DNA of 64,000 nucleotides, from NCBI RefSeq assembly GCF_001651805.1, contig NZ_CP015839.1, forward strand, positions 1,922,001 through 1,986,000, written 5' to 3'. A program made the translations under genes and the position numbers. The notes under the pieces are model-generated. The model had not been told where the DNA came from and searched no databases. It saw only the letters and a list, made by a program, of their open reading frames with translations. Below, piece after piece: positions 42,383 through 62,017 of the stretch; positions within the stretch are counted from its first letter, which is position 1, and the number at the start of each line of letters is the position of its first letter. The DNA comes from Marinobacterium aestuarii. Lineage in GTDB: Bacteria; Pseudomonadota; Gammaproteobacteria; Pseudomonadales; Balneatricaceae.

Positions 42383-45031
42383 TCAGGCATGTTCGATCAG
42401 CGCCTTGAGCTCGGGAATGCAGGAGCCACAGTTGGTGCCGCAGCTCAGCGCCTTGCCCAGGGACTCGACCGAGTTGGCACCCGCCTTCATCGCCTGACGA
42501 ATGCGCTTTTCCCCCACCTGGAAACAGGAACAGATGATTGCCCCCTGATCCGGTGCGCCTTCGCTGGCGCGGCCCGACAGTAATTGCATGCGTTCCTTGG
42601 TCGTGAGGCTGCGTCCCAGCTGGGTCGACAGCCAGGCAGGCGGCGGCAGTTCAGCGTCGCAACTGGCAATAAACACCCATAACAGGCGGCCGTCCCTAAA
42701 GGCGGCGGCGCGATAGTGGTTGGCGTGGCTGTCCAGCAGCTCGATCAGGTCGGTGCTGGCAGGTAGCCAGCTTTTGACCCAGTCCGACCAGTCCGGTCTG
42801 TCATTGAACCCCGCCAGCGCATAGCGTTCCCCCTGCTCCAGCGTGACACGGCTCCAGTAGTCACTGGCGGGCGTCTCAATGGCGTCCAGGCTCAGCAGCA
42901 TCCCCTGCCAGCGCGGGCGCAGGCCCTGCATGCGCACCGGACTCTGTTTCAGCTCGGGTTGCCCGGAGACCGGATCCGTGACGGCGGCCACCAGGGCATC
43001 GACAGCGCCGTGGGATGCATAGCGATCATTCCAGTGGATGGGGGCAAACAGTGATCCTGGTTGCTGATTCGGGGTCACCCGAGCGCGCCCGATATATTCA
43101 GCATTGAGGGCTGAAAGGCTGACCAGGTCACCGCTGTGAATGCGCTGCTGTTGTGCATCCCGTTCACTGATTTCGATGTAGGGTTCGTCGCAGTGGTCCA
43201 GCAGACGCGGGCTGCGGGCGGTGCGGGTCATGGTATGCCACTGATCCCGGCTGCGCCCGGTATTGAGTACGAAGTCACCGTCCCGGCAGGGATTGGCTGG
43301 CATGCGGGCATCTATAGGCAGCAGGCGGGCGCGGCCCGAGGCTGTAAAGAAGTGGCCGTCTGCGAACATGCGCGCCGTGCCTTCGGGGGAGGTATCGGTG
43401 ACGGGCCACTGGATGGGTGCCAGGGCGTCGTACTGGTTGCGGGTCAGGTCGGCCAGGGCGGAGATATCAAAATCCCGGCTGCCCTGGTTGCGATAGCCCG
43501 ACAGGCGGGCGTGTTCCTGAAAGATGTCCGCCGGGTGCCGGTACGCGAAAGCGTCACCGAAGCCCAGGCGTGCGGCGACATCGCAGACGATCTGCCAGTC
43601 GTGGCGAGCCTCGCCAGGAGCCTGCAAGAAGCCGCGCTGGCGCGAGATGCGGCGTTCCGAATTGGTGACGGTGCCGTTTTTCTCGGCCCAGGTGGTGGCC
43701 GGCAGCAGCACGTCGGCCAGGGCCGTGGTGTCGGTCTGCTCGACACAGTCACTGACCACCACCAGTTCGCACTGCTGCAGGGCGCGGCGTACCTGGGCCG
43801 AGTCCGGCAGGCTCACCGCCGGGTTGGTGCCAATGATCCAGACGGCCTTGACGTCGCCGCGCTCAATTGCCTGAAACAGATCCACGGCCTTGAGGCCAGG
43901 CGCCTGCGCCATTTTGGGGGCTTGCCAGAAGTCGGCCACTGTTTCCAGGTGAGTCGGGTTGTCGAACTCCATATGGGCCGCCAGCTGGTTGGCCAGGCCG
44001 CCGACTTCGCGCCCGCCCATGGCGTTGGGCTGGCCGGTAATGGAAAACGGGCTGGCGCCGGGCTTGCCGACACGCCCTGTGGCCAGGTGACAGTTGATGA
44101 TGGCGTTGGCCTTGTCGGTGCCGGAGGACGACTGGTTGATGCCCTGGGAGTAAAACGTCAGGCTGCGCTCGGTGCGGGCGAAATGCTCGAACAGCCACTG
44201 CACGTCCGCAGGCTCAAGACCGCAGTAGGCCGCGGTGGTCATCAGGTCCGGGCACTGCTGCTGGGCCTGGGTCAGGGCGGCGTCAAAGCCTTCGCAGTGC
44301 TGCGCAATATAGTCGTCGTCCAGCGCATCGTTCTGCGCCAGGTAGCTCAGCAGACCGTTGAACAGAAAGGCATCACTGCCGGGCTTGAGGGCCAGGTGGC
44401 GGTCGGCCAGGTCACAGGTGGCGGTACGTCTTGGATCCAGTACCACGACCTGCATGTCCGGGCGGGCCTGTTTGGCTCTTGCCAGGCGCTGATACAGGAT
44501 GGGGTGGGCCCAGGCGGCATTGGAGCCCACCAGTATGACCAGGTCGGCCTCGTCGAGGTCGTCGTAGCAGGCGGGTACGGTGTCGCTGCCAAAGGCGCGC
44601 TTTTGCCCGGCGACCGCCGAAGACATGCACAGGCGCGAGTTGGTATCGACATTGGCGCTGCCGATAAAGCCTTTCATCAGCTTGTTGGCGACGTAATAGT
44701 CTTCGGTCAGGATCTGGCCCGACAGGTAAAAGGCGACCGAGTCGGGGCCATGCTGATCGATCAGGCGGGCGAAGGTATCGGCGACCTTGTCCAGCGCGCT
44801 GTCCCAGCTGACGCGCTGACCCTGAATCTGCGGGTACAGCAGACGGCCCTCGGGGCCTGCGGTTTCATGCAGCGCCGAGCCCTTGACGCAAAGACGGCCG
44901 TTGTTGGCCGGGTGCGATGCATCGCCGCTCACCGCGATCAGGCGGTTGTCACTAACGCGCGCCTCGACACCACAGCCGACGCCGCAGTAGGGGCAGGTGG
45001 TCAGGGTGCTGGACTCAGGTTTGTTCTTCAT
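42383..45031 (-). CDS. nasA: assimilatory nitrate reductase catalytic subunit
   Basis: About 882 residues from ATG 45031 (a GTG at 45043 is the longer option). Reduces nitrate to nitrite in the cytoplasm. The N-terminal [4Fe-4S] site is CPYCGVGCGVE with a later CVKGSALHE. Molybdopterin-guanine dinucleotide segments follow (SNAAWAHPILYQRL; IIGTNPAVSLPDSAQVRRAL; LLPATTWAEKNGTVTNSERRISRQRGFL; NTGRSRDQWHTMTRTARSPRLL). The C-terminal 60 residues form a BFD-type [2Fe-2S] domain (IICSCFQVGEKRI...GTNCGSCIPELKALI), as in Klebsiella-type NasA. There is no Tat signal, as expected. Last gene of the leftward cluster, with its own leader containing a sigma54-like promoter and an ANTAR-type attenuator. Confidence 0.96.
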   Translation of the reverse strand: MKNKPESSTLTTCPYCGVGCGVEARVSDNRLIAVSGDASHPANNGRLCVKGSALHETAGPEGRLLYPQIQGQRVSWDSALDKVADTFARLIDQHGPDSVAFYLSGQILTEDYYVANKLMKGFIGSANVDTNSRLCMSSAVAGQKRAFGSDTVPACYDDLDEADLVILVGSNAAWAHPILYQRLARAKQARPDMQVVVLDPRRTATCDLADRHLALKPGSDAFLFNGLLSYLAQNDALDDDYIAQHCEGFDAALTQAQQQCPDLMTTAAYCGLEPADVQWLFEHFARTERSLTFYSQGINQSSSGTDKANAIINCHLATGRVGKPGASPFSITGQPNAMGGREVGGLANQLAAHMEFDNPTHLETVADFWQAPKMAQAPGLKAVDLFQAIERGDVKAVWIIGTNPAVSLPDSAQVRRALQQCELVVVSDCVEQTDTTALADVLLPATTWAEKNGTVTNSERRISRQRGFLQAPGEARHDWQIVCDVAARLGFGDAFAYRHPADIFQEHARLSGYRNQGSRDFDISALADLTRNQYDALAPIQWPVTDTSPEGTARMFADGHFFTASGRARLLPIDARMPANPCRDGDFVLNTGRSRDQWHTMTRTARSPRLLDHCDEPYIEISERDAQQQRIHSGDLVSLSALNAEYIGRARVTPNQQPGSLFAPIHWNDRYASHGAVDALVAAVTDPVSGQPELKQSPVRMQGLRPRWQGMLLSLDAIETPASDYWSRVTLEQGERYALAGFNDRPDWSDWVKSWLPASTDLIELLDSHANHYRAAAFRDGRLLWVFIASCDAELPPPAWLSTQLGRSLTTKERMQLLSGRASEGAPDQGAIICSCFQVGEKRIRQAMKAGANSVESLGKALSCGTNCGSCIPELKALIEHA

Positions 45032-45112
45032 GATGGGTTCCACTCGCCGTGTCGTTCAGACCTGGGTGTATGGGGAGTCAGGCGCACAGGCAACTTGGAA
45101 AACAGTGCGCAT

Positions 45113-45151
45113 AAAAAAACGCCACCTCCCGCCAAGTGGCAGGAGATGGCG
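45113..45151 (-). terminator. attenuator terminator in the nasA leader
   Basis: Leftward, CGCCATCTCCTGCC pairs with GGCGGGAGGTGGCG (one G-T pair and one A-G style imperfection) and is followed by seven T (45119-45113). It stands 82 bases before the nasA start, inside the leader, so it must be bypassed for nasA expression. Confidence 0.8.
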
Positions 45152-45160
45152 CCATTGCCA
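45147..45160 (-). promoter_or_regulatory. ANTAR-type stem-loop in the nasA leader
   Basis: Leftward, TGGC-AATGGC-GCCA: a hexaloop with A at position 1 and G at position 4, the pattern recognised by ANTAR regulators such as NasT. Its 3' arm shares bases with the 5' arm of the terminator, so the two structures exclude each other. Confidence 0.65.
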
Positions 45161-45238
45161 ACTTCCACGTTAGGGGCCGGGCCGGTGAGAATCAGATCTC
45201 GCGGGGCACGACACTTTTCGTTCTATTGTTATTGGTTA

Positions 45239-45254
45239 TGCGAATGTCATGCCA
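45239..45254 (-). promoter_or_regulatory. sigma54-like promoter of nasA
   Basis: Leftward, TGGCAT-N5-TCGCA with GG and GC at the -24/-12 spacing; one base differs from the TTGC element. About 80 bases upstream of the hexaloop stem. Confidence 0.55.
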
Positions 45255-45375
45255 GTTTATTATTTTTCCCAAAATGCCCATGGCATTGGCGTTTCCGGGT
45301 GTGAATCGCGGCAGTGGGGGACTGTTGCGGTACATAAAGGAGCCGTTTGGGTGCGTGCCTGATCCCGCATGCCCC

Positions 45376-45720
45376 TTAACGGGGCGTCGGGTCGATCAGC
45401 AGTACGTCATCCCGCAGGCTTACCTGCCAGGTGGCGAGTTTCACTGTCTCGTCCTCGAAGCACTGGCCGTCGATCAGGCTGAAGCGCTGCTTGTACAGCG
45501 GCGAGGCGACCACAGGCACATCGGCGATGGAGCCGACGATGCCGCGGGACAATACATTGGCCTGGCCGAAGGGGTCGTGATTGTCGATGGCGTAGACCTG
45601 TTCGTCGTCCGGCAGGTAGAAGAGTGCCACCTGGCGGCCGTCCACCAGGGCGCAGACGCCGCTGTTGGGGACCAGGTCGGCTTTGCTGCACAGGGAAATC
45701 AGTTTTGTGTTGGTGGTCAT
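45376..45720 (-). CDS. nirD: nitrite reductase (NADH) small subunit NirD
   Basis: 114 residues with a Rieske-like fold but without the CxH...CxxH cluster ligands, as usual for NirD (VALFYLPDDEQVYAIDNHDPFGQANVLSRGIVG; VVASPLYKQRFSLIDGQC). It partners with NirB to reduce nitrite to ammonium in the cytoplasm. It starts 11 bases after the nirB stop. A 345-base leader region for nasA follows it. Confidence 0.95.
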   Translation of the reverse strand: MTTNTKLISLCSKADLVPNSGVCALVDGRQVALFYLPDDEQVYAIDNHDPFGQANVLSRGIVGSIADVPVVASPLYKQRFSLIDGQCFEDETVKLATWQVSLRDDVLLIDPTPR

Positions 45721-45731
45721 GGTTTGATTCC

Positions 45732-48284
45732 TCAGCTAACCATCTTGACGGGGACGGCCGGTGTATTGGCGGTTTTTTCCGCAGCGGTGGCGGGGCGGAT
45801 CTGATCGCGTTCCATCACGAACACCACGTTGTCGTCGGTCGCATCGGCGTTGACGAAGGGGCGGAAACGCTTGAGGGCTTCTGGGTCCTCGATGGTTTTC
45901 TTCCACTCGCATTCGTAGGTGCCGACAACCTGCAGCATCTGCTCTTCAAGTTCTGCGCCAAGCCCCAGGGAGTCTTCAATGATGACCTGGCGCAGGTAGT
46001 CCAGACCGCCTTCAAGGTTGTCCATCCACACGGAGGTGCGCTGCAGGCGATCGGCGGTCTTGACGTAGAACATCAGGAAACGGTCGATGTACTTGATCAG
46101 GGTGTCCTTGTCCAGATCGGTGGCGAACAGGTCGCCGTGGCGCGGTTTCATGCCGCCGTTGCCGCACAGGTAGAGGTTCCAGCCGTTTTCGGTGGCGATG
46201 ATGCCCACGTCCTTGCTCTGGGCCTCGGCGCACTCACGGGTGCAGCCGGATACGGCAAACTTGATCTTGTGAGGCGAGCGCAGGCCCTTGTAACGGTTCT
46301 CCACTTCGATGGCCAGACCCACACTGTCGTCTACACCGTAGCGGCACCAGGTACTGCCGACGCAGGATTTGACAGTACGCAGCGACTTGCCGTAGGCGTG
46401 GCCGGTTTCAAAGCCGGCATCCACCAGGATGCGCCATATCTGCGGCAGCTCTTCCAGGCGGGCGCCGAAGAGGTCGATACGCTGGCCGCCGGTGACCTTG
46501 GTGTAGAGGTTGAACTGCTTGGCCACCTGACCCAGAGTGATCAGCTTGTCGGGGGTGATTTCACCGCCGGCAACACGGGGCACGACCGAGTAGGTGCCGT
46601 CCTTCTGCATGTTGGCGAGGAAAGTATCGTTGGTGTCCTGCAGCCCGACGTGGGGCTTTTTCAGTACGAACTCGTTCCAGCACGACGCCAGGATGGAAGC
46701 GGCGGTGGGTTTGCAGATCTCGCAGCCCTTGCCACGGCCGTGTTTGTGCAGCAGCTCGTCGAAGGACTTGATCTGATCCACGCGTACCAGATGGTAAAGT
46801 TCCTGACGGGTAAAGTCGAAGTGCTCGCACAGGTTGCGATTGACTTCCACGCCGCGGCTTTCGAGTTCATGGTTCACCAGGTTGGTCAGCAGGGCGGAAC
46901 AGCCGCCACAGCCCGTGGCCGCCTTGGTGCAGGACTTGACGTCACCCAGGGTGGCGGCACCGCCATCGATGGCCTGGCAGATATCGCCTTTGGAGACATC
47001 ATGGCAGGAGCAGATTTGCGCCGTTTCGGGCAGGGCGGCAACGCCCAGGCCCGCGGGTTTGCCGTCGCCGCCGCGCTGGGGCAGGATCAGGCTGTCCGGA
47101 AATTCCGGCAGCTCGATACCGTTGAGGGCGTACTGCAGCAGGGTGCCATAGTCCTCGGCATCGCCCACCAGGATCGCGCCCAGCAGCTGCTTGCCGCTTT
47201 CATTGACGACGATCTTCTTGTAGGTGCCGCAGGCTTCATCCAGATAGGTGTAGTTGCGCGCGCCCGGAGTATGGCCGTGGGCGTCGCCGATGCTGGCCAC
47301 ATCCACGCCCATGAGCTTGAGTTTGGTGCTCATGTCGGCGCCGAGGAACTGTTTGTCTTCACCCAGCAGCCTGGCAACGGCGACCTTGGCCATGTTGTAG
47401 CCTGGGGCCACCAGGCCGAAGATGCGGCCATTCCAGAGGGCGCATTCGCCGATGGCGAAGATGTTCTTGTCCGAGGTCAGGCAATCGTTGTCGATAACGA
47501 TGCCGCCGCGCTCGCCCACATCCAGGCCGCAGCTGCGGGCCAGTTCGTCACGCGGGCGGATGCCGGCGGAGAACAGGATGACGTCTGTCTCCAGTACCTC
47601 ACCGTCGGCGAACTCCATGCGGTGCACGGCGTTGTCGCCATCCACGATCTGCTGGGTATTCTTGCCGGTATGTACCTTCACGCCCAGTTCTTCAATCTTG
47701 TCGCGCAGCACCTTGCCGCCGGCATCATCCAGCTGTACCGCCATCAGGCGCGGGGCAAATTCCACTACGTGGGTTTCGAGCCCCAGATCGCGCAACGCCT
47801 TGGCCGCTTCCAGTCCCAGCAGGCCACCGCCCACGACCACACCGCTGCGGCCCTTGGCGGCGCTGGCGGTGATGGCTTCCAGGTCTTCGATGGTGCGGTA
47901 CACCAGGCAGTGTTCGCGGTCATGACCCGGTACCGGTGGCACAAAGGGGAAGGAGCCGGTGGCCAGAATGATCTGGTCGTAGGCCAGGACATCACCGGTG
48001 TTGCTGGTGACGCTCTGGTTATCGCGATCAATGCTGACGACTTTTTCGTTCAGGCGTACTGTGTAGCCCCATTCGGCGTACTGCGCCGGCTGCCCCATGG
48101 CCAGATCTTCGGCGGTCTTGCCCGAAAAATAGGCGCTCAGCTGCACACGGTCGTAGGCCAGACGCGGCTCTTCGCAGAAGATGGTGACGTCAAAGCGCTC
48201 GGCTGCGCCACTGTCTGCAAGGCTGGCGAGGAATTGGTGACCGACCATGCCATTGCCGATCAGGATCAGTTTAGTTTTGTTCAT
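45732..48284 (-). CDS. nirB: nitrite reductase (NADH) large subunit NirB
   Basis: 850 residues. Order of domains: FAD/NAD-binding oxidoreductase (IGNGMVGHQFLASL; VVVGGGLLGLEAAKALRDLG), a BFD-type [2Fe-2S] domain (ICSCHDVSKGDICQAIDGG...TGCGGCSALL), a ferredoxin-like nitrite reductase half-domain, and the sirohaem/[4Fe-4S] domain (CVGSTWCRYGVDDSVGLA; FAVSGCTRECAEAQSKDVGIIAT; LYLCGNGG). It takes electrons from NADH to reduce nitrite to ammonium. It follows the NasB-like gene by 79 bases and is presumably on the same transcript, so the nasB-type leader controls both. Confidence 0.97.
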   Translation of the reverse strand: MNKTKLILIGNGMVGHQFLASLADSGAAERFDVTIFCEEPRLAYDRVQLSAYFSGKTAEDLAMGQPAQYAEWGYTVRLNEKVVSIDRDNQSVTSNTGDVLAYDQIILATGSFPFVPPVPGHDREHCLVYRTIEDLEAITASAAKGRSGVVVGGGLLGLEAAKALRDLGLETHVVEFAPRLMAVQLDDAGGKVLRDKIEELGVKVHTGKNTQQIVDGDNAVHRMEFADGEVLETDVILFSAGIRPRDELARSCGLDVGERGGIVIDNDCLTSDKNIFAIGECALWNGRIFGLVAPGYNMAKVAVARLLGEDKQFLGADMSTKLKLMGVDVASIGDAHGHTPGARNYTYLDEACGTYKKIVVNESGKQLLGAILVGDAEDYGTLLQYALNGIELPEFPDSLILPQRGGDGKPAGLGVAALPETAQICSCHDVSKGDICQAIDGGAATLGDVKSCTKAATGCGGCSALLTNLVNHELESRGVEVNRNLCEHFDFTRQELYHLVRVDQIKSFDELLHKHGRGKGCEICKPTAASILASCWNEFVLKKPHVGLQDTNDTFLANMQKDGTYSVVPRVAGGEITPDKLITLGQVAKQFNLYTKVTGGQRIDLFGARLEELPQIWRILVDAGFETGHAYGKSLRTVKSCVGSTWCRYGVDDSVGLAIEVENRYKGLRSPHKIKFAVSGCTRECAEAQSKDVGIIATENGWNLYLCGNGGMKPRHGDLFATDLDKDTLIKYIDRFLMFYVKTADRLQRTSVWMDNLEGGLDYLRQVIIEDSLGLGAELEEQMLQVVGTYECEWKKTIEDPEALKRFRPFVNADATDDNVVFVMERDQIRPATAAEKTANTPAVPVKMVS

Positions 48285-48363
48285 GGGGTTACTCCCGTTA
48301 CGGATTCTGTGGCTGGCAGGGACCCGGTCGTACAGGATCGATCTGCTAGTTTGAGTTCAGTGT

Positions 48364-49626
48364 TCATACGGCTATTTCTTGGGTAATGGAGGCCGTGACC
48401 GGTACTTCCGGGATCTCATCAAGGCAGCAGGCGCGGCCGAAGATCAGCTGTGGCAGCAGTTCGCCCAGATCCTGCTGGCGCTGCATCAGTTCGAAGTACC
48501 ACTGGCCGTCCTGTACGTCGCCATAGAGCACGACGCCTACCAGACGGTTATCCCGCAGCAGCAGCTTGCGATAGACGCCGCTGGCGCTGTCGCCCAGTGT
48601 CAGGCTGTCCAGCTCAGGGGCATCGAGGTACTCGCCTGCGCTGAACAGATTGATGCCCGACACCTTCAGCTTGGTGGGTACCGGTGCATCACGATAAGGA
48701 GTGGCCAGACCCCGGACCAGTCGATCTGCCAGCAGGCGAGCCTGCTCCCAGATCGGTGCTACCAGTCCAAAGGTCCGTCCACGGTGCTCTATGCATTCCC
48801 CCAGGGCACTGATGCGGGCATCGCTGCTGCGCAGCAGATCATCGACCTGCAGGCCGCGGTCGCATTCCAGCGCCGCCGAGCGCGCCAGCGCGCTGTTGGG
48901 GGTAATGCCGGTGGCGATGATGGCCAGTTGGGCATCGAGGCGGGTACCGCTTTTCAGCACGGCACCCTGCAGCTGCTCGCTGCCCTCGAAGTGGCTGATT
49001 TCATCCCCCAGTACAAAGCGAATACCGCGCAGGGCCAGCTCGGCGCGCAGCAGCTCGCCGGCGCAGGCGTCGAGCTGGCGATTCATCAGCCAGTCACCGC
49101 GGTGAATCAGGGTCACGCCCAGGCCCTTTTTGGCCAGGGCGTCGGCGGCTTCAAGACCCAGAAGGCCGCCACCGATCACCAGTGCGTCCCGGCTGCGGGC
49201 GCTCTGGGCAAGGATGTGCTCGACATCCTGCTCGGTACGAAAATCGAAGATGCCAGCCAGTGCCTGGTTATCGGCCGGGATCCGGGCCGGGCGTGAACCT
49301 GTGGCCAGAATCAGCTGGTCGTATTCACAGCGCAGCCCCTTGTGGCTGATAACAAAACGCTGGGCCCGGTCGATCTCTACCACGGCGTCATTGCTGTGCA
49401 GGCTGATGCCGTGGTTCTTGTACCAGAGGTTGCTCTTAAGCTGGATCGACTTGCGGTCGGTGTCACCTGCCAGCAGTGGTGAGAGCTGAATACGGTTATA
49501 GGCACCACCGGGCTCATCACCGAATACAGTAATCTGGTAGGCACTGGCATCGCGGCTCAACAGCTCGTCGAGCAGACGGCTGGTTGCCATGCCGTTACCA
49601 ATAATGACCAGTTTCTGTAGTTCCAT
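48364..49626 (-). CDS. FAD/NAD oxidoreductase, NasB-like nitrate reductase electron-transfer subunit
   Basis: I start at Met 49626 (MELQKLVIIGNGMATSRLLDEL), giving 420 residues. It has the same FAD and NAD binding modules as the N-terminal part of NirB (IIGNGMATSRLL; DALVIGGGLLGLEAADALAKKG; IATGITPNSALARSA) but ends after about 420 residues, without the iron-sulfur and sirohaem domains. Such proteins pass electrons from NAD(P)H to the assimilatory nitrate reductase, like Klebsiella NasC or Bacillus NasB. It stands first in the operon with nirB and nirD, behind its own sigma54-like promoter and ANTAR-type attenuator. A direct nitrite reductase role is unlikely. Confidence 0.85.
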   Translation of the reverse strand: MELQKLVIIGNGMATSRLLDELLSRDASAYQITVFGDEPGGAYNRIQLSPLLAGDTDRKSIQLKSNLWYKNHGISLHSNDAVVEIDRAQRFVISHKGLRCEYDQLILATGSRPARIPADNQALAGIFDFRTEQDVEHILAQSARSRDALVIGGGLLGLEAADALAKKGLGVTLIHRGDWLMNRQLDACAGELLRAELALRGIRFVLGDEISHFEGSEQLQGAVLKSGTRLDAQLAIIATGITPNSALARSAALECDRGLQVDDLLRSSDARISALGECIEHRGRTFGLVAPIWEQARLLADRLVRGLATPYRDAPVPTKLKVSGINLFSAGEYLDAPELDSLTLGDSASGVYRKLLLRDNRLVGVVLYGDVQDGQWYFELMQRQQDLGELLPQLIFGRACCLDEIPEVPVTASITQEIAV

Positions 49627-49671
49627 CCGGTGTGGGCTCCGCAATATCTATTTCAGGAAAAAGCGTTCAAT

Positions 49672-49720
49672 AAAAAAAGGCGTTCATCAGCCGTGCGCAA
49701 TGACACGGGGGATGAACGCC
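49672..49720 (-). terminator. attenuator terminator in the nasB-like/nirBD leader
   Basis: Leftward, GGCGTTCATC...CCGTG...CACGG...GATGAACGCC forms a long stem, followed by seven T (49678-49672). It sits 45 bases before the start codon of the first gene. Confidence 0.85.
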
Positions 49721-49728
49721 TTTGTTCA
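49713..49728 (-). promoter_or_regulatory. ANTAR-type stem-loop in the nasB-like leader
   Basis: Leftward, TGAAC-AAAGGC-GTTCA: a 5-bp stem and a hexaloop with A1 and G4. The GGCGTTCA part is also the 5' arm of the terminator, so pairing is mutually exclusive. A further hairpin (GGACTC-TTCG-GGGTCC) lies just upstream, near 49730-49746. Confidence 0.7.
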
Positions 49729-49769
49729 GTGGACCCCGAAGAGTCCGTCGCTTTGTCTATGTTGTATAA

Positions 49770-49785
49770 AGCAGGGACCGTGCCA
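49770..49785 (-). promoter_or_regulatory. sigma54-like promoter of the nasB-like/nirBD operon
   Basis: Leftward, TGGCAC-N5-CTGCT with correct GG/GC spacing. About 67 bases further upstream, TGCACC-N6-GGTGCT (49852-49869) resembles an NtrC site with one extra spacer base. Confidence 0.65.
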
Positions 49786-49960
49786 AGTATTGGAAAGTGT
49801 GTATTTTCAGTACTCTGGGGTAGTTTGCGGGGGGCGGGTCAGGGGCTTTGGTGCACCGAATAGGGTGCTTGCTCCGTGGCGGTGCCTGTTATTGGTGCGA
49901 AAGTATGGCGCCAGCGATAGTGTGCAGGGGCTACCCAGATGTGGGCAGTACCGCGCCTGT

Positions 49961-51691: not shown

Positions 51692-51711
51692 AATCGTGCT
51701 TCCAGAACCTC

Positions 51712-51743
51712 AAAAGGGGGCGAAGCCTTGCGGCCGCGCCCCC
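51712..51743 (-). terminator. terminator between narK-type gene and kinase fusion
   Basis: Leftward, GGGGGCG (51743-51737) pairs with CGCCCCC (51722-51716), followed by TTTT. It lies 39 bases past the transporter stop and just before the kinase-fusion start, so transcription may be partly ended here. Confidence 0.6.
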
Positions 51744-51782
51744 GGGTTACTTCCTGCTGTCGCTTGAGTCAGGAGAGGCTGA

Positions 51783-53252
51783 TCAGGAGACGTTGATCAG
51801 CTCGACACTGCCATCGGCATTGACTTCGGCCATGTGCCCCTTGGGTTCTTCCAGCAGCAGCAGGACGGCAAAGCCCAGTACCGCGGTGGCGGCAATGACC
51901 ATGAAGAAGGTCTGGTAGCTGACCATGGACAGTACTGTCAGGTAGAACACTGCACCGACATTGCCGTAGGCGCCGGTCATGCCAGCTACCTGGCCGGTGA
52001 GGCGGCGCTTGATCAGCGGCACGACGGCAAAGACGGCACCTTCACCGGCCTGGACGAAGAAGGAGCAGGCCATGGCGGCAATGACGGCCAGTGCCAGCGG
52101 CCAGCTGCTGTCGATCACCGACATGACACCATAGCCCAGGGCAAGACCCGCGGTCAGTACCAGCAGGGTGGCTTTGCGTCCGCAGCGATCGCTGATCAGG
52201 CCACCGGCCGGGCGGGACATCAGGTTCATGAAAGCATAGCCCGAGGCGAGCAGGCCGGCATAGACCATGTCCAGCTCGAAAACGTCGGCGAAGAACAGTG
52301 GCAGCATCGAGACCACGGCCAGCTCCGAACCGAAGGTGGCGAAGTAGAGCACATTCAGTACCGCAACCTGCTTGAACTTGTAACGGTGCATTTCCGGTAC
52401 CGGCTGGGTGAAGATCTCCCGGTTGACGCTGTAGGCGCTGTAGCAGTCATAAATGAAGAAGATCGCCAGGCCAATATAGATAAAGAACGCGACTGTGGCG
52501 CTGAGAATCGATACACCCTGGGGCGACAGTTTCCAGCACAGCAGCGCCAGGGCCGCATAGAGAGGGATTTTCATGATCAGCAGGAAAACGAAGTCGCCCT
52601 TGCTGGTGACTTCCAGCCCGCCGATACGCTTGGGCTTGAAGTAGGTCGAACCCTTGGGGGTATCGGACACATTGAAAAACCACACAAAGCTGAAGATCAG
52701 GCACAGCAGACCGGTGGTGGCCACGGCATAGCGCCAGCCGTCTTCGCCGCCAAAAATCAGTGCCAGGGTTGGCAGCAGCATGGCGGCGGCGGCGGAACCG
52801 AAGTTGCCCCAGCCGCCGTAAATGCCTTCAGCGGTACCCAGTTCGTTGGCCGGGAACCATTCGCTCACCATGCGGATGCCGACAACGAAGCCTGCACCTA
52901 TAAAGCCCAGCAGGAAACGGGCGACGGCGGCCTGGGTAAAGTCCTGCGCCAGGGCGAACATGAAGCAGGGCAGGCTGCAGAAGAACAGCAGCGCGGCGTA
53001 GACATTGCGCGGGCCGTACTTGTCGGTCAGCATGCCGATCAGAACGCGGGCCGGAATGGTCAGGGCGACGTTGAGAATCAGCAGCGTCTTGATTTCGTCG
53101 GAGGTCAGTCCCAAGGAGGTCTTGATCACGCCCAGCAGGGGCGCGAAGTTGAACCAGACAAAGAACGTCAGGAAGAAGGCGATCCAGCTCATGTGCAGGA
53201 TCTTCATTTTGCCGCTAAAGGCAAACAGGTTGAGCTTGGTGTGATCAGTCAT
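51783..53252 (-). CDS. NarK/NasA-type nitrate/nitrite MFS transporter
   Basis: 489 residues and twelve predicted membrane helices. Nitrate-porter signatures are visible: FVWFNFAPLLGVIKTSLGL, ARVLIGMLTDKYGPRNVY, GFVVGIRMVSEWFPANELGTAEGIYGGWGNFGSA and GAYGNVGAVFYL (two nitrate signature GxxGN-type motifs). It imports nitrate in exchange for nitrite or with protons. In this cluster it stands beside a second importer, the ABC system nrtABD, so the cell has a low- and a high-affinity route. The leader between nrtD and this gene carries an ANTAR-type attenuator but no obvious promoter. Confidence 0.93.
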   Translation of the reverse strand: MTDHTKLNLFAFSGKMKILHMSWIAFFLTFFVWFNFAPLLGVIKTSLGLTSDEIKTLLILNVALTIPARVLIGMLTDKYGPRNVYAALLFFCSLPCFMFALAQDFTQAAVARFLLGFIGAGFVVGIRMVSEWFPANELGTAEGIYGGWGNFGSAAAAMLLPTLALIFGGEDGWRYAVATTGLLCLIFSFVWFFNVSDTPKGSTYFKPKRIGGLEVTSKGDFVFLLIMKIPLYAALALLCWKLSPQGVSILSATVAFFIYIGLAIFFIYDCYSAYSVNREIFTQPVPEMHRYKFKQVAVLNVLYFATFGSELAVVSMLPLFFADVFELDMVYAGLLASGYAFMNLMSRPAGGLISDRCGRKATLLVLTAGLALGYGVMSVIDSSWPLALAVIAAMACSFFVQAGEGAVFAVVPLIKRRLTGQVAGMTGAYGNVGAVFYLTVLSMVSYQTFFMVIAATAVLGFAVLLLLEEPKGHMAEVNADGSVELINVS

Positions 53253-53285
53253 AGGTCTTCATCCATTACTGGGCCAGCAAAGTGC

Positions 53286-53335
53286 AAAAAAAATGGCGTC
53301 CAAGATTCCCGTTGCCGGGAAGGCTTGAACGCCAT
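53286..53335 (-). terminator. attenuator terminator before the narK-type gene
   Basis: Leftward, ATGGCGTTCAAG and CTTGGACGCCAT pair with an internal TTCCCGG/CGGGAA stem, followed by eight T (53293-53286). It is 34 bases upstream of the start codon. Confidence 0.85.
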
Positions 53336-53342
53336 TGTTCAA
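53325..53342 (-). promoter_or_regulatory. ANTAR-type stem-loop before the narK-type gene
   Basis: Leftward, TTGAAC-AATGGC-GTTCAA: a perfect 6-bp stem with hexaloop A1, G4. It overlaps the 5' arm of the terminator. A possible first hairpin, GCCC-ATAAAA-GGGC, lies about 30 bases upstream (near 53357-53370) with a loop lacking G4. Confidence 0.7.
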
Positions 53343-53435
53343 ATTTGGTGCGTTTGCCCTTTTATGGGCCTTGTTTCGGTGCGTCAGGAGTTGTCTTTTT
53401 ACCCGCTATCTGGCCCCTGGCGCCGTTGCCGTGGG

Positions 53436-54374
53436 TCAGGCGGCAGCCGGGGCTGTCGTTTCTCCTGTGGATGCCATGGATGAATGCACGTCCTGTGCCA
53501 GTACTGCGCTTTCGGTTGTTATTGCGGTTTCGGTTGCGGGTTTGGTAGGGGCAGACTTCCCGCTCGGCGTACTGCGCTGACTGTTGTCCTGGTCTGGCTT
53601 GTGCTGCTTCTCGTACAGGAAACTCAGCACCTCGTGGCGGTAGTGGTTGTAGCGGGCGTCGTCGGCCAGTTCGATGCGGTTGCGTGGCCGCTCCAGTTCA
53701 ATTTTAAGGATCTCGCCCACGGTGGCCGCCGGGCCATTGGTCATCATGACGATACGATCCGACAGCAGCACGGCCTCGTCGACATCGTGGGTGATCATGA
53801 TCACGGTATTGTTGAGCCGCGCCTGGATCTCCATCAGGGAGTCCTGCAGATGGGCGCGGGTCAGGGCATCCAGGGCGCCGAAGGGTTCGTCCATCAGCAG
53901 CACTTTGGGCTGCATCGCCAGCGCCCGGGCTATGCCTACGCGCTGCTTCATGCCACCGGAAATTTCATCCGGGCGCTTGTGCAGGGCGTGGCTCATGTGC
54001 ACCAGCTCCAGGTTGTGCTCGATCCAGTCCTTCATTTCGGCGCGGGTCTTGCTGTTACGAAATACCTGCCTGACCGCCAGTTCGACGTTTTCGTAGGCGC
54101 TGAGCCAGGGCAGCAGCGAGTGGTTCTGAAACACCACGGCCCGTTCGGGGCCGGGCTCGCGCACCTCCTTGCCCTCCAGTACCACACCGCCCTCTGTGGC
54201 CTCATAGAGGCCGGCAACCAGGTTGAGCACTGTGGACTTGCCACAGCCGGAGTGGCCGATCAGGGAGACGAATTCGCCCTGGTCGATCTTCAGATTGACG
54301 CCGTCCAGGGCGCGAAAAGGGCCGCGGGGGGTCGGAAAGTCGATCGCTACGCCGGTAAGTTCCAGGTGAGTCAT
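53436..54374 (-). CDS. nrtD: nitrate ABC transporter ATP-binding protein NrtD
   Basis: 312 residues. Walker A LIGHSGCGKST, Q-loop VFQNHSLLPW, signature ISGGMKQRVGIARAL, Walker B VLLMDEPFGALD, H-loop MITHDVDEA. It belongs to the nitrate/sulfonate/taurine importer group. The first 265 residues are the normal ATPase. The last 50 are an unusual low-complexity tail rich in Ser, Thr, Pro and Ala (QHKPDQDNSQRSTPSGKSAP onward), absent from most NrtD proteins. It follows nrtB by 30 bases. Confidence 0.93.
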   Translation of the reverse strand: MTHLELTGVAIDFPTPRGPFRALDGVNLKIDQGEFVSLIGHSGCGKSTVLNLVAGLYEATEGGVVLEGKEVREPGPERAVVFQNHSLLPWLSAYENVELAVRQVFRNSKTRAEMKDWIEHNLELVHMSHALHKRPDEISGGMKQRVGIARALAMQPKVLLMDEPFGALDALTRAHLQDSLMEIQARLNNTVIMITHDVDEAVLLSDRIVMMTNGPAATVGEILKIELERPRNRIELADDARYNHYRHEVLSFLYEKQHKPDQDNSQRSTPSGKSAPTKPATETAITTESAVLAQDVHSSMASTGETTAPAAA

Positions 54375-54404
54375 GGGGTGTCTCCTTGTTGGGTGGCTAG
54401 TGCA

Positions 54405-55412
54405 CTAGCGCACGACGGCGTTTTTGTCCCAGGAAATGCGGCTCTGCAGCAGCTGCATGGCGCGATCGAGCATAAAACCGATGATGCCGATCACCAGGAC
54501 CGCGACCATGATGCGCCCGAGGGAGTCGGAGCTGCCGTTCTGAAACTCGTCCCAGACGAACTTGCCGAGCCCCGGGTTCTGCGCCAGCATTTCGGCGGCG
54601 ATCAGCACCATCCAGGCGATGCCCAGCGACAGTCGCAGGCCGGTAAACATGGCAGGAATCGAGGCCGGAATGGCGATCTTGAGAACGTGGGTCATGAACG
54701 GCAGGCGCAGCACCTTGCTGACGTTTTTAAGGTCCTGGCTGATGCTCGACACCCCCACGGCGGTATTGATCAGCGTTGGCCACAGGCTGCACAGGGACAC
54801 CGTGATCAGCGAGGTAACAAAGGACTTGGCAAACATGGGGTCGTCGGAGACGTAAAGCGCGCTGACCACCATGGTGACCAGGGGTAGCCAGGCCAGGGGG
54901 GAGACCGGCTTGAACAGCTGAATCAGCGGATTAAGCGCCGCGTACAGGGTGCCGTTGAGGCCGATCAGGATGCCCAGCGGAATGGCGATCAGGCTGGCCA
55001 GGGCAAAGCCTGCCAGTACCGTGACCAGGCTGGTGCCGATTTGATCGACAAAGGTGGGTTTGCCGGTGTAGTTGCGCAGCCGTACCTCGGCGCCGGGGTC
55101 CTTGGCCAGAGTGGCGGCATTGCGCTTTTCCTGGCGCTCCATAAAGGCGGCTTCGCGGCCGCGCTCGCGCTGGTGGTCGGCGATCAGGCCAAAGGACTGT
55201 TCATACACCTGGGTCGGGCCTGGGAACTTGCCCAGCGAAGTATCGATATTGCGCGCGGCTATATGCCAGGCGAACACAAACACCAGCAGGCCGAGCAGCG
55301 GCAGCAGCAGGGCACGGGCGATGCGAGTGACGCTGTCGGCACTGGGTGCGCGCAGTGACAGGCGCAGCCGGCGGGCCTTTAGAGGGTGACTTTGGGGACT
55401 TGTAGTGCTCAC
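54405..55412 (-). CDS. nrtB: nitrate ABC transporter permease NrtB
   Basis: 335 residues. N-terminal membrane helix (LLLPLLGLLVFVFAWHIA), a charged periplasmic stretch (HQRERGREAAFMERQEKRNAATLAKDPGAEVRLRNYTG), then the permease core with five helices and the EAA-like loop (SISQDLKNVSKVLRLPFMTHVLKIAIPASIPAMFTGLRLSLG). It forms the inner-membrane channel of the nitrate importer with NrtD. The long inserted periplasmic stretch is usual for the nitrate-specific branch. It starts 51 bases after the nrtA stop. Confidence 0.93.
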   Translation of the reverse strand: MSTTSPQSHPLKARRLRLSLRAPSADSVTRIARALLLPLLGLLVFVFAWHIAARNIDTSLGKFPGPTQVYEQSFGLIADHQRERGREAAFMERQEKRNAATLAKDPGAEVRLRNYTGKPTFVDQIGTSLVTVLAGFALASLIAIPLGILIGLNGTLYAALNPLIQLFKPVSPLAWLPLVTMVVSALYVSDDPMFAKSFVTSLITVSLCSLWPTLINTAVGVSSISQDLKNVSKVLRLPFMTHVLKIAIPASIPAMFTGLRLSLGIAWMVLIAAEMLAQNPGLGKFVWDEFQNGSSDSLGRIMVAVLVIGIIGFMLDRAMQLLQSRISWDKNAVVR

Positions 55413-55463
55413 GGTTATTGCTCCACAACGGAGGCGCAGGCGTGCTGCCTGCGCCGGTTAAGC

Positions 55464-56882
55464 TCAGATTTTGTCGTCGCCCTTGAGGCCGATACCGAAT
55501 TTTTTCAGGTAGTCGTTGGGGCTGTGGCCGTCGTAGGTGATGCCATCTATAAAGTGGGTCTGGGGCGCGCGGTAGCCATCTTCAGTGCCGAAGTCCGGGA
55601 ACTCGGAGGCCTCCATCTTGCCTTCCTCGATCAGGGACTGGGCCGCCTGGGCGTAGATGTCCGGGCGATAGACCTTCTTGGCGATATCCATAAACCAGCT
55701 GTCCGGCTTGGCATCCTCGATCTGGCCCCAGCGGCGCATCTGTGTCAGGTACCAGATGGCGTCCGAGTAGTAGGGGTAGGTGGCGTTATGGCGGAAGAAG
55801 ACGTTGAAATCGGGCACCTCGCGTATGTCACCTTTTTCGTATTCGAAGGTACCGGTCATGGAATTGGCGATAACTTCATAATCAGCACCGACATATTCAG
55901 GCCGGGACAAAATCTCAACGGCTTCGGGGCGGTTACCGTTGTCGTTGGCGTCCAGCCACTTGGCGGCACGGATCATGGCCTTGACGACGCGCAGGTGGGT
56001 GTTGGGGTTGGCATCGGCCCAGGCCTTGGATACGCCGAACACTTTTTCGGGGTTGTCCTTCCAGATTTCGTAATCGGTGATGATGGGCACGCCTATGCCC
56101 TTGAATACCGCCTGCTGGTTCCAGGGCTCACCGACGCAGTAGCCATGAATGGTGCCGGCTTCGAGTGTGGCGGGCATCTGTGGCGGCGGCGTGACCGACA
56201 GCAGGGCATCGGCACTGAGCTGGCCGCTGATATCACCCTTGTGGGGCGCATAGAAGCCGGGGTGTATGCCACCGGCGGCGAGCCAGTAGCGCAGCTCGTA
56301 GTTATGGGTCGAGACCGGGAAGACCATGCCCATGTTGAAGGGCTTGCCTTGGGCCTTGAATTCGTCGACCACCGGTTTCAGGTAATCGGCCTTGATGGGG
56401 TGTACCGGCCGGCCGTCGGCATCCTTGGGGATATGCGGCTTCATGCGCTCCCAGATATCGTTGGAGACGGTGATGCCGTTGCCGTTAAGGTCCATGCTGA
56501 AGGCGGTAATGATATGGGCCTGGGTGCCGTAGCCGATGGTCGCCCCCAGTGGCTGGCCCGCCAGCATATGGGCACCGTCGAGCTGGCCGTCGATCACGCG
56601 GTCCAGCAGTACCTTCCAGTTGGCCTGGGCTTCGACCTGTACGAACAGGCCTTCATCCTCGAAATAGCCCTTTTCGTAGGCGATGGCCAGCGGCGCCATG
56701 TCGGTGAGCTTGATAAAACCGAATTTCAGGTCTTCCTTTTCAGGCGGGCCTATTGCGGCCTGGGCCAGACTGAGGGTCATGAGGGATGACAGCGACAGGG
56801 CGCCGGCGGTGATCATCGCCTGCTTAAGCAGGGTGCGACGGGGGCGGACGGAGGTGGTGCTCGGGGCGGTGTTGAGTGGCAT
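55464..56882 (-). CDS. nrtA: nitrate ABC transporter substrate-binding protein NrtA
   Basis: 472 residues. The N-terminus has a twin-arginine-type signal ([30 protein letters not shown]), so export may be Tat-dependent. The body is the NrtA/CmpA nitrate-binding fold ([77 protein letters not shown]). It captures nitrate in the periplasm for NrtB/NrtD. It is first in the uptake operon. Its leader has AAGGAG before the ATG, an attenuator and a sigma54-type promoter. It shares ancestry with NasS, encoded just upstream. Confidence 0.95.
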
Positions 56883-56905
56883 GGTCTGGCTCCTTGAATT
56901 GCAAA

Positions 56906-56954
56906 CAAAAAGGCGCCTGCAACGGGACCAAATACGTGTCCCGCTACAGGCGCC
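56906..56954 (-). terminator. attenuator terminator in the nrtA leader
   Basis: Leftward, GGCGCCTG-TAG-CGGGAC pairs with GTCCCG-TTG-CAGGCGCC, followed by TTTTTG (56911-56906). A very stable stem only 24 bases before the nrtA start. Confidence 0.85.
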
Positions 56955-56962
56955 TTTGCCTG
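56947..56962 (-). promoter_or_regulatory. ANTAR-type stem-loop in the nrtA leader
   Basis: Leftward, CAGGC-AAAGGC-GCCTG: a perfect 5-bp stem with hexaloop A1, G4. The GGCGCCTG segment is also the terminator 5' arm, so the NasT-bound form would prevent termination. Confidence 0.75.
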
Positions 56963-56994
56963 AAACTGCTTTTTAACAAAACTGTTCAGGATAT

Positions 56995-57010
56995 TGCATA
57001 AGCCGTGCCA
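56995..57010 (-). promoter_or_regulatory. sigma54-like promoter of nrtA
   Basis: Leftward, TGGCAC-N5-ATGCA, one base from the consensus, with GG and GC correctly spaced. It lies about 33 bases before the ANTAR-type stem-loop. Confidence 0.7.
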
Positions 57011-57112
57011 CAAATTTAAATCATTGAAATATATGGATTAAATTATGTTGCGTGATTTTTGTGCGCTCTGTTGTGCACTGCGGCAAGTCAGTGGTGCTGG
57101 CGTGCTGCACTC

Positions 57113-58288
57113 TTATTGCTCAGCCGTTACAGGCTGGGCGCTCGGATCGAAGCGCCTGTCTTTGGGCAGGCTGAGGGGGCCCTGGTTGCCGGCAACCTCC
57201 CAGGGGCTGTCGTGCATGCCTTCAAGCTTGCTGTCGTTCAGCGGCAGGTTGAGCTGCAGGGCGGCGCTGGCCAGGCGAAAGTGGCTGCTGTCGTAGGTCG
57301 AGCGCGCCAGTTCATCCAGTTCTGCACCGCTGCGGGGGCTGGGCTGGCCCTGCTGTATTTGCTCCAGCAGCCAGCGTGCCTGGGACTGCCAGGGGAAGTT
57401 GGCGGCACTGCCAAAGAACTGATGCCGGCCGATACCGGGATCCGGTGTTATCAGACCGGCGCCCAGGTACTGTGGCTGGCCCAGAATGTCGAGCATGCGG
57501 CTGCGATTGCCGGCTTCATCCAGCCAGGCGCAGGCTCGCAGCAGTGCCATGATGAGCAGCTGCAGGCTGTCCGGGTGCTGGCGGGCCCAGTGGGCGGTGG
57601 TGCCCAGCACCTTGTCGGGCGCGTTATGCCAGATCTGGTGGCCGCTGATCAGCACGCGGCCGACCTGTTGTTGCTGGGCGACACTGTTCCAGGGCTCGCC
57701 GGCGCAAAACGCATCGATCAGGCCGCGCTTGAGTGCATCCACCATCTGGGGCGGCGGCACCACCACCTGGCGAATGCGCTGCAGGTCGATACCGCAGGCG
57801 TTGAGCCAGTAACGCAGCAGAAAGCTGTGCATCGAGTGGGTATACACGGTGGCGAAGGTGGGGCGCTCTTGGGGATGTTCGCGCAGGTACCAGGCCAGGG
57901 CCGCGCCTGCGCAGGCGGGGTCGGTGCCGAAATCCGGCGCCTGTTGCAGGGCTTCATGGAGCGCACTGCTTAGGGTAATGGCATTGCCGTTGAGGCCCAG
58001 ACCCATGGTGCAGACCAGCGGGTTCTGGCCGTAGCCGAGCCCCAGGGCTGCGGCCAGCGGAATGCCCGCCGGCATCTGGGCGGCATCCAGCAGGCCCAGC
58101 TGCACCTTGTCGCGGATGCTGGCCCAAGAGGCCTCCTTGCTCAGGCTGACGTCCAGGCCGCAGTCGCGGAAGTATCCCAGTTCCAGCGCCAGGATCAGCG
58201 GGCAGGCGTCGATCAGGGGCACGAAGCCCAGTGTCAGTTGCGGTTTTTCCGGTGCCGGCAAAGGGCTGGGCAATCTAAGGTCAGGCAT
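57113..58288 (-). CDS. nasS: nitrate/nitrite sensor NasS
   Basis: 391 residues of the same fold as NrtA (LTLGFVPLIDACPLILALELGYFRDCGLDVSLSKEASWASIRDKVQLGLLDAAQMPAGIPL; DAFCAGEPWNSV) but with no signal peptide, so it stays in the cytoplasm. NasS binds nitrate or nitrite; without ligand it holds NasT inactive. Position next to nasT and nrtA fits this. It begins 66 bases after the nasT stop, on the same strand. The order nasT-nasS is as in Pseudomonas. Confidence 0.9.
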   Translation of the reverse strand: MPDLRLPSPLPAPEKPQLTLGFVPLIDACPLILALELGYFRDCGLDVSLSKEASWASIRDKVQLGLLDAAQMPAGIPLAAALGLGYGQNPLVCTMGLGLNGNAITLSSALHEALQQAPDFGTDPACAGAALAWYLREHPQERPTFATVYTHSMHSFLLRYWLNACGIDLQRIRQVVVPPPQMVDALKRGLIDAFCAGEPWNSVAQQQQVGRVLISGHQIWHNAPDKVLGTTAHWARQHPDSLQLLIMALLRACAWLDEAGNRSRMLDILGQPQYLGAGLITPDPGIGRHQFFGSAANFPWQSQARWLLEQIQQGQPSPRSGAELDELARSTYDSSHFRLASAALQLNLPLNDSKLEGMHDSPWEVAGNQGPLSLPKDRRFDPSAQPVTAEQ

Positions 58289-58354
58289 AGCGGGTATCCA
58301 TATTGGGTCGGATGCAAACGGTGCGCCGCGGTCGGGGCGGGCAGCGTGTTCAGA

Positions 58355-58942
58355 TCAGATGATTTCCATCACGGCAATAATGTTGCGGGCGATTTCGGCC
58401 AGCGGCTTTTGCTGATCCATCGCCATGCGGCGCATCGCCTTGAAGGCTTCGTCTTCAGGGCATTTGTGACGTTTCATCACCAGGCCCTTGGCCTTTTCGA
58501 TCAGTTTTCGATCGGCCAGCTCCGAGCGTGCCTCGACCAGCTCGCGACGCAACGCCTGGAACTCGCGAAAACGCGCGGCGGCGACATCCAGAATCGAGCT
58601 GATGCGGCCAAATTCAAGCCCGTCGACCACGTAGGCGCTGACGCCGGAGCGGATGGCCTTTGAAATGGTATCGCTGTCGCCCTGTTCGGCGAACATGACC
58701 ACCGGGCGCGGTGAACGGTCATTCAGCAGCGCCATGTTTTCCAGCACATCCCGGCTGGGGGAGTCCAGATCGATAATGATCATGTCGGGGTGAAGCTCCT
58801 CCACCCGGTCGGCCAGCAGATCGGTATTGTCCAGTCGTGCCAGCACCTCATATCCCTGATCGCGCAGCGACTGTTCAAGCAGCGCGGCTCGGCCACGATC
58901 CTCATCAATCACCAATACTTTTATCGATGGAGGGCTTTTCAT
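58355..58942 (-). CDS. nasT: ANTAR response regulator NasT
   Basis: I start at Met 58942 (MKSPPSIKVLVIDEDRG, with CAGGAG upstream), giving 195 residues. The receiver domain shows VIDEDRG, the phospho-acceptor position in IIIDLDSPSRD, and a conserved-looking SGVSAYVVDG. The ANTAR RNA-binding domain follows (ELADRKLIEKAKGLVMKRHKCPEDEAFKAMRRMAMDQQKPLAEIARNII). NasT binds hexaloop stem-loops in leader RNAs and prevents termination. Four such leaders occur in this window. The gene is divergent from gltX. Confidence 0.94.
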   Translation of the reverse strand: MKSPPSIKVLVIDEDRGRAALLEQSLRDQGYEVLARLDNTDLLADRVEELHPDMIIIDLDSPSRDVLENMALLNDRSPRPVVMFAEQGDSDTISKAIRSGVSAYVVDGLEFGRISSILDVAAARFREFQALRRELVEARSELADRKLIEKAKGLVMKRHKCPEDEAFKAMRRMAMDQQKPLAEIARNIIAVMEII

Positions 58943-59003
58943 TCTAACGGGGGCTCCTGGGTGCATTCAGTCAGGCAAACAAAATCCTGTGACTGAAAAT
59001 ATA

Positions 59004-61989: not shown

Positions 61990-62017
61990 CTTCAAAAGAC
62001 AGCTGAAAGTCCTATGC

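Follow-up and report, generated by a model that had tools for sequence, protein, structure and literature searches.

Nitrate Assimilation Cluster and Its Putative Regulators

In this work, a nitrate assimilation gene cluster of Marinobacterium aestuarii was analysed within a window of 64,000 nucleotides (contig NZ_CP015839.1, positions 1,922,001 to 1,986,000) taken from a single-contig genome of 5.19 Mb. The cluster lies on the minus strand, as do all features given below unless stated otherwise, and comprises nasT, nasS, nrtA, nrtB, nrtC, a NarK-type transporter gene (narK), a gene for a PP2C-kinase fusion, a nasB-like gene, nirB, a nirD-like gene, and a NasA-type gene (nasA). Ahead of nrtA, narK, the nasB-like gene, and nasA there is a leader in which a hexaloop stem, referred to as P2, shares one arm with an intrinsic terminator. 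Judged from the sequence, these leaders probably belong to a nitrate regulon under NasS-NasT that comprises at least five attenuators and in which NasT would be able to antiterminate from P2 alone.

The NasT protein (58355..58966, 203 aa) contains receiver-like and ANTAR domains (Pfam ANTAR, 3.7e-20; Response_reg, 1e-11) and is the sole ANTAR match in the whole genome. The adjoining gene (57113..58288), named nasS from this position, encodes an NMT1_2 binding-protein-like sensor (PF13379, 1.4e-69), so that an NMT1-like protein gene stands next to one for a receiver-like and ANTAR protein, as is characteristic of NasS-NasT systems. These Pfam matches agree with an initial annotation of the same DNA, which had placed nasT and nasS within one cluster. 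The NasT of Marinobacterium sedimentorum is 99% identical to that of the window. In our reading of the alignments, Met172 of EutV, termed essential for RNA binding (PMC8934654), corresponds to M183 of the window NasT, a residue that all 18 aligned NasT sequences share (18/18), and the position of EutV Tyr164 is occupied by Phe in the window.

The transport genes are nrtA for the binding protein of a nitrate ABC transporter (55464..56882; PF13379, 9.6e-97; nitrate assigned from context), nrtB for the permease (54405..55412; TIGR01183, 1.2e-47, under its cut-off), nrtC for the ATPase (53436..54374; TIGR01184, 2.1e-104), and narK for a NarK-family nitrate/nitrite transporter (51783..53252; TIGR00886, 2.4e-100, over its cut-off). 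The PP2C phosphatase-Ser/Thr kinase fusion (49961..51691; PF13672 and PF00069) is followed by the nasB-like FAD oxidoreductase, which resembles the N-terminal part of NirB (48364..49644; first half of TIGR02374, 1.3e-107, under cut-off), and by the nitrite reductase large subunit NirB (45732..48284; TIGR02374 and NF011565, over cut-off). The nirD-like small subunit (45376..45720) is an open reading frame named by its position; it adjoins nirB in relatives too. The nasA-type gene (42383..45043) encodes a molybdopterin oxidoreductase with a C-terminal Fer2_BFD domain (PF00384, PF01568, PF04879, and PF04324), and its designation as nitrate reductase comes from context; in NCBIfam its top match was Fdh-alpha (3.9e-149) and its second NasC (5.7e-131), both under cut-off.

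Hexaloop Stems and Terminators in the Leaders

All four P2 stems are on the coding strand, and all four loops have A at the first and G at the fourth position (A1/G4). The nrtA P2 (CAGGC-AAAGGC-GCCTG, 56947..56962, first loop base 56957) has 5 bp; its terminator, spanning 56905..56955 with the T-run, has 18 pairs and a minimum free energy (MFE) of -38.2. The narK P2 (TTTGAAC-AATGGC-GTTCAAG, 53324..53343, first loop base 53336) has 6-7 bp and is combined with a terminator of 11 pairs (53288..53334, MFE -27.6). In the nasB-like leader, a P2 of 5 bp (TGAAC-AAAGGC-GTTCA, 49713..49728, first loop base 49723) precedes a terminator of 11 pairs (49672..49721, MFE -27.9), and in the nasA leader, a P2 of 4 bp (TGGC-AATGGC-GCCA, 45147..45160, first loop base 45156) precedes one of 16 pairs (45111..45151, MFE -30.7). 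Each time the 3' arm of P2 doubles as the 5' arm of the terminator, and a T-run follows. The overlap of an A1/G4 P2 with an intrinsic terminator, which is part of the ANTAR leader motif of Ramesh (2012), was found in 4/4.

The window was scanned for A1/G4 hexaloops with a stem of at least 4 bp and a 3' arm starting a terminator with a T-run. Nine matches were obtained: the four leaders (11-18 terminator pairs) and five others (6-9 pairs). With a threshold of 11 pairs, chosen after the four leaders had been seen, 300 dinucleotide shuffles of both strands gave 15 matches in total (mean 0.05 per shuffle, maximum 1) against the four observed. The four leaders of the initial annotation, with hexaloop and shared 3' arm, are thus well founded; its stem lengths of 4, 5, 5, and 6 bp are close to ours and differ at narK, where a T-G outermost pair makes the stem 6-7 bp. 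A search of the window against Rfam at the gathering score gave seven matches, all to tRNA and none of ANTAR type. Two tRNA clusters are present in the window, one of four genes at 3982-4482 (minus strand) and one of three genes at 61914-62194 (plus strand).

It had also been suggested that graded P2 stem lengths set the order of gene expression. The computed energies (kcal/mol) are -7.0 for nrtA (5 bp), -4.7 for narK (7 pairs), -4.4 for nasA (4 bp), and -3.2 for the nasB-like leader (5 bp), so the number of base pairs does not rank the stability of P2, and the terminators differ in strength as well. The constancy of the nrtA, nasB-like, and nasA P2 energies, which are identical in the window and at the related loci L032, L033, and L036, would fit such a grading; the narK P2, however, varies from -3.2 to -5.0 among the same four. 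We therefore reject stem length as the basis of an expression order, for which it is an unlikely explanation.

Sigma54-Type Promoters

The consensus of sigma54 promoters has GG at -24 and GC at -12 (TGGCAY..TGC). By match to this consensus, a sigma54-type site was found ahead of all four window leaders and of the fifth leader described below. The nrtA site (TGGCACGGCTTATGCA, 56995..57010) is also present in five congener nrtA leaders, and the narK site (TGGCACAGGACGTGCA, 53485..53500) is located inside the 3' end of nrtC, which brings the three leaders first credited with such promoters to four of four; the others are TGGCACGGTCCCTGCT (49770..49785) for the nasB-like leader and TGGCATGACATTCGCA (45239..45254) for nasA. 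The distance from the predicted start to P2 in the window is ~22 nt for nrtA, ~31 nt for the nasB-like leader, 68 nt for nasA, and 131 nt for narK (123-133 nt in five congener narK leaders). The putative assignment to sigma54 is supported by the recurrence of the sites at the same place across unique leaders, namely in 60/69 of nrtA, 16/17 of narK, 19/20 of nasB-like, 38/40 of nasA, and 4/4 of nirB.

Conservation and Covariation

Besides the window, the comparison drew on 40 stretches of the cluster in relatives and on 80 loci obtained by scanning with a NasT profile, which makes 121 loci in total. Some genomes were represented twice, and identical contexts were merged. In a wider scan (AANG loops; a stem of 4 or more pairs, or three G-C pairs), leaders were present at 92 of these loci; 152 leaders were unique, a few of them being spurious. 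To avoid selecting for P2, a pattern search independent of its 5' arm was also used. This gave 72 unique sites ahead of nrtA (40), narK (16), nasB-like (9), nasA (6), and nirB (1), and a P2 stem of at least 3 pairs was formed in 72/72, of at least 4 in 53/72. Another five sites at these loci lacked a query gene downstream; four of these formed stems of at least 4 pairs, and one, inside a gene, had a stem of 2. Genus-wide, 14 of the 34 lines reported for pattern loci had a stem of 4 or more, all 14 in nas clusters, and the other 20 had stems of 0-3 (some sites occurring repeatedly among these lines). Swapping the 5' arms within gene classes lowered the values for the pattern sites from 22 to 9.4 for nrtA, from 15 to 9.4 for narK, and from 6 to 2.4 (maximum 6) for nasA; for the nasB-like leaders (9 vs 9.0) the swap was uninformative because their arms are so alike. 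A terminator-first scan for P2 was too blunt and was set aside (of 85 candidates, 31 had stems of at least 4 pairs vs a mean of 7.8 after arm swap).

The terminators might merely separate neighbouring operons, with P2 being incidental. Several leaders do follow directly on the upstream gene, the narK promoter even lying inside nrtC, and the terminators are strong. However, the 5' arm of P2 lies outside the terminator and yet pairs at all 72 pattern sites and covaries, whereas the reported genus sites outside nas clusters do not have this arm paired over 4 or more positions. The explanation by operon separation is strongly disfavoured.

In an alignment of 34 leaders (A2), P2 was paired in 90.0% and the terminator in 89.3% of cells, percentages inflated by the preselection of these leaders for a P2 stem and a terminator; this counts against our interpretation, also for the covariance model built from A2. 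Double changes were found in 45 cells of P2 vs 14.4 after shuffling, and in 77 cells of the terminator vs 25.1, and 0/500 shuffles reached such values. Columns 15-17 of A2, which represent the shared arm, covary with both their P2 and their terminator partners, as expected of mutually exclusive folds.

Covariance Model and a Fifth Leader

The covariance model R1 was derived from A2, which includes the nasB-like leader of the window and leaders of congeners. A covariance-model search had been proposed for the four leaders, and R1 recovered all of them, at 50.4 (nasB-like, itself part of the model), 47.4 (narK), 45.6 (nrtA), and 35.4 bits (nasA). For three leaders the opposite strand gave a match as well (14.3-26.6 bits); two other sites were at chance level. 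Outside the window, a fifth leader was found at G000:C1:4491428-4491487 with 36.7 bits, which is above nasA; a weaker match in the same genome (L195) reached 25.2 bits (E 0.098). As R1 was applied to 150 of 2269 first-look candidates in this genome, and to 150 of 2118-2705 per congener genome, weak leaders could be missed and the number of leaders is at least five.

The fifth leader has the P2 GGGC-AACGGC-GTCC and the sigma54 site AGGCACGACTATTGCT. Downstream are genes for a formate/nitrite transporter, a second PP2C-kinase fusion, a cyanase, and TauE; the transporter, PP2C-kinase, and cyanase form an operon at L194:2216-5331, and the kinase has the domain make-up of that in the nas cluster. 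The leader recurs together with the transporter, kinase, and cyanase genes in 5/6 congeners and was not seen in G001. Further R1 matches with TGGCAATGGC hexaloops and sigma54-like sites occur in the congeners G005 (L227:2767-2822) and G004 (L228:6299-6359), where the downstream genes (weakly CbiA-like, M20 peptidase) have no clear link to nitrate.

The Upstream Hexaloop

ANTAR leaders described elsewhere have a second hexaloop, P1, upstream of P2. Among the four window leaders, only narK has an A1/G4 P1 that recurs in congeners. It lies directly after the nrtC stop (CCC(AC)GGC-AACGGC-GCC(AG)GGG, 53414..53435) and is weak, with 3 bp, a 2x2 mismatch, and 3 bp, so that a 4-bp rule misses it. It is better formed at L032, L033, L034, and L036 (e.g., CCCATAAC-AAAGGC-GTTATGGG) and absent at L035 and L222. 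In the window, neither the nrtA nor the nasB-like leader has an A1/G4 P1, and none lies in the 300 nt that precede P2; within the same distance, no such hexaloop is shared between congeners for nrtA, nasB-like, or nasA. The 22 nt between the predicted nrtA start and P2 (21-24 nt in the genus) hold no hexaloop. In the nasA leader, a hairpin with G4 and without A1 (GAGA-TCTGAT-TCTC) lies 26 nt before P2; it is present at L036 and not kept at L032 or L033. The window nasA also has a weak A1/G4 stem (ACGA-AAAGTG-TCGT) that occurs in no congener. In place of P1, the nasB-like leader has a tetraloop hairpin (GGACTC-TTCG-GGGTCC, 49731..49746). In the window and five congeners, 88.9% of its 36 cells were paired, and double changes occurred in 3/6 pairs; further forms of the hairpin are GGATTC-TGCG-GAATCC, GGACTC-ACAA-GAGTCC, and GCCCC-TTCT-GGGGC. 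Its covariation score taken together with P2 was reached by 4/500 shuffles.

In the comparison, any AANGNN hexaloop of 4 or more pairs in the stretch from the predicted start to P2 was counted as P1. Compared with shuffle expectation, P1 was found in 37/60 (1.5 expected) of nrtA, 12/16 (0.5) of narK, 2/19 (0.2) of nasB-like, 5/38 (0.5) of nasA, and 2/4 (0.1) of nirB leaders. For the spacing range and the paired loci below, rows were excluded if the sigma54 score was below 5, the gene was annotated as nasT or nrtC, the distance exceeded 250, or the predicted start lay less than 15 nt from P2; remaining errors are an nrtA row at L051 with P1 taken as P2, an uncounted 3-bp P1 of nrtA at L070, and L040, which is a composite of two leaders. 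The spacing from P1 to P2 is 75 nt for the window narK and varies between 4 and 104 nt in the 55 leaders that have P1, so the short, constrained spacing described by Ramesh (2012) was not found.

At the 35 loci that have a transporter as well as a reductase leader, a P1 of 5 or more pairs was present in transporter leaders only at 22, in reductase leaders only at 1, in both at 4, and in neither at 8. Given the G4 hexaloops of Marinomonas nasA leaders, the paired test was repeated without this genus (14 vs 1, 21 loci) and with relaxed loops: accepting any G4 hexaloop gave 14 transporter-only, 1 reductase-only, and 16 with both, and without Marinomonas and L040, 7, 0, and 9 (20 loci). The sign-test p-values, 5.7e-6 to 0.016, overstate the significance because the loci are related, and the nrtA leader of the window itself breaks the rule that transporter leaders carry P1. 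At L040 (L040:4201-4660), where no nrtABC was found, an nrtA-type and a narK leader, separated by a short reading frame, follow one visible sigma54 site in tandem and precede narK.

Proposed Mechanism

We hypothesize that under nitrogen limitation sigma54 RNA polymerase, as predicted from the promoter matches, would start at each operon, and that by default each leader would fold into its intrinsic terminator. In the presence of nitrate, NasS would release NasT, as described for Paracoccus (PMC3795266). NasT may then bind the P2 hexaloop and keep the 3' arm from the terminator, so that the operon is read. Antitermination from P2 alone would probably require more free NasT than a two-hexaloop leader if NasT behaves like NasR, which binds P1P2 at ~1 uM and P2 alone at ~12 uM (PMC7496416). 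Tentatively, one ANTAR protein might serve both one- and two-hexaloop attenuators, with P1 being optional and setting sensitivity. Leaders that carry P1, which are narK in the window and those of transporters in many relatives, could then open at low free NasT and P2-only leaders of nitrite and nitrate reductases later, placing uptake before reduction. This extension is possible rather than likely; if an expression order exists, the presence or absence of P1 would be a better candidate for it than stem strength.

Several observations speak against this interpretation. P1 is essential in the nasF leader (PMC3369936) and, as reported, in the eutP leader (PMC8934654). The 5' parts of P1-less leaders are still structured (mean z ~-2), so a non-canonical P1 could act, and any-G4 hexaloops with at least 4 pairs occur in 20/57 nasA and nasB-like leaders vs 6.1 expected; several Marinomonas nasA leaders have theirs at one place, 26-29 nt before P2. 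In denitrifying Bradyrhizobium, narK and bjgb were reported to rise upon nasT deletion despite their predicted NasT hairpins (PMC6759348), so that a hairpin alone is no proof of activation by NasT. Finally, G005 has NasR and its nas cluster shows no nasT or nasS, yet P2 leaders are still present there ahead of nrtA, narK, nasB-like, and nasA. These leaders are either served by NasR or decaying.

All leaders might accordingly be ordinary two-hexaloop ANTAR leaders, with P1s that are relaxed (G4 only, another loop size) or contained in longer transcripts from upstream promoters. The structured 5' parts, the excess of G4 hexaloops, and the nasA hairpins of Marinomonas and of the window would fit this, and nasA as a P1-less class has been withdrawn because a G4 hexaloop is frequent among the nasA leaders of Marinomonas. 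However, 17/19 nasB-like leaders have no A1/G4 hexaloop and those of the window genus have the covarying tetraloop hairpin instead; the genus nrtA leaders leave 21-24 nt before P2 and share no A1/G4 hexaloop within 300 nt; and G4 of the nasA hairpin is kept at one of three related loci (L036, not L032 or L033). We regard ordinary two-hexaloop leaders throughout as rather unlikely. It is also improbable that the leaders without P1 are relics in decay that provide little regulation. Such decay would fit the seemingly repeated loss of P1, which is missing from narK at L035 and L222 too, but the same leaders retain P2, the terminator, and the sigma54 site across genera. Antitermination by NasT from P2 thus remains our preferred interpretation.

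One ANTAR protein is present in 6/7 genus genomes, including that of the window, and in five of these it is NasT. The sole ANTAR protein of G005 is NasR (NIT and ANTAR domains), and in G004 NasT is accompanied by another ANTAR protein, which is encoded in a frame of 468 aa and labelled NasR by place and length. An A1/G4 P1 in the fifth leader was found only in G004 and G005 of six compared, where a NasR-type ANTAR protein adjoins; one such NIT and ANTAR protein lies next to the fifth leader at L223:8242-9516 in a congener without a NasT match. Between nirD and nasA, G004 has three tandem units of P2 and terminator (L231, ~8946-10013) and G005 has two (L222, ~3388-4210). Some of the units have a separate sigma54-like site and no gene that evidently belongs to them; these might be decoy RNAs or stacked attenuators.

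Comparison With Known ANTAR Systems

Regulons with several ANTAR leaders and control of several nitrate genes by NasT are already in print. At least 13 ANTAR RNA matches in six transcriptional units of D. acetoxidans were published alongside the eut locus of E. faecalis, and NasT of Bradyrhizobium is connected with nosR and, through hairpins that were predicted there, with nirA, a coxS gene, narK, and bjgb (PMC6759348). The novelty initially seen in several leaders within one cluster is therefore not upheld. What may be new is that at least two leaders (nrtA and nasB-like) seemingly have no P1, an element reported as essential elsewhere. A search of open-access papers, in which work on the NasT leaders of Azotobacter and Pseudomonas aeruginosa did not come up, yielded no description of an ANTAR attenuator with a single hexaloop at nas genes. 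Walshe (2022) redefined the minimal ANTAR binding motif as one hexaloop, allowed single-hexaloop sites where no transcribing polymerase imposes a time limit, posed the question why antitermination needs two hexaloops, and urged more work on single hexaloops (PMC8934654). P1-less leaders whose P2 overlaps a terminator, beside a two-hexaloop leader and under one NasT, would offer matched templates for this question. Moreover, searches for two hexaloops would miss P1-less leaders, and ANTAR regulons may be undercounted.

The eut/EutV system of E. faecalis, as described (PMC3369931, PMC8934654), likewise combines a single ANTAR protein with four leaders at the same locus, each with an A1/G4 P2 overlapping the terminator, and with a further target outside the locus. 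The eut leaders contain both P1 and P2 at a constrained distance, whereas here at least two leaders have no P1 and the spacing in relatives is 4 to 104 nt, and EutV is activated by phosphorylation, whereas here a NasS-type sensor takes the place of the kinase. The NasR/nasF system of Klebsiella oxytoca (PMC7496416, PMC3369936) also controls nitrate assimilation genes by ANTAR antitermination, but according to these reports NasR is a single protein that contains a NIT domain, and the nasF leader includes P1 as well as P2, unlike the NasS-NasT pair and the P1-less leaders of the window. Closest in its components is NasS-NasT of Paracoccus and Bradyrhizobium (PMC3795266, PMC5424462, PMC6759348), with a nasTS pair, a nas leader bound by NasT, and, in Bradyrhizobium, more than one predicted NasT leader. 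The Paracoccus nasA leader is described with the hairpins HI, which is needed, and HII, while M. aestuarii has at least five leaders, with and without P1, preceded by sigma54-type sites.

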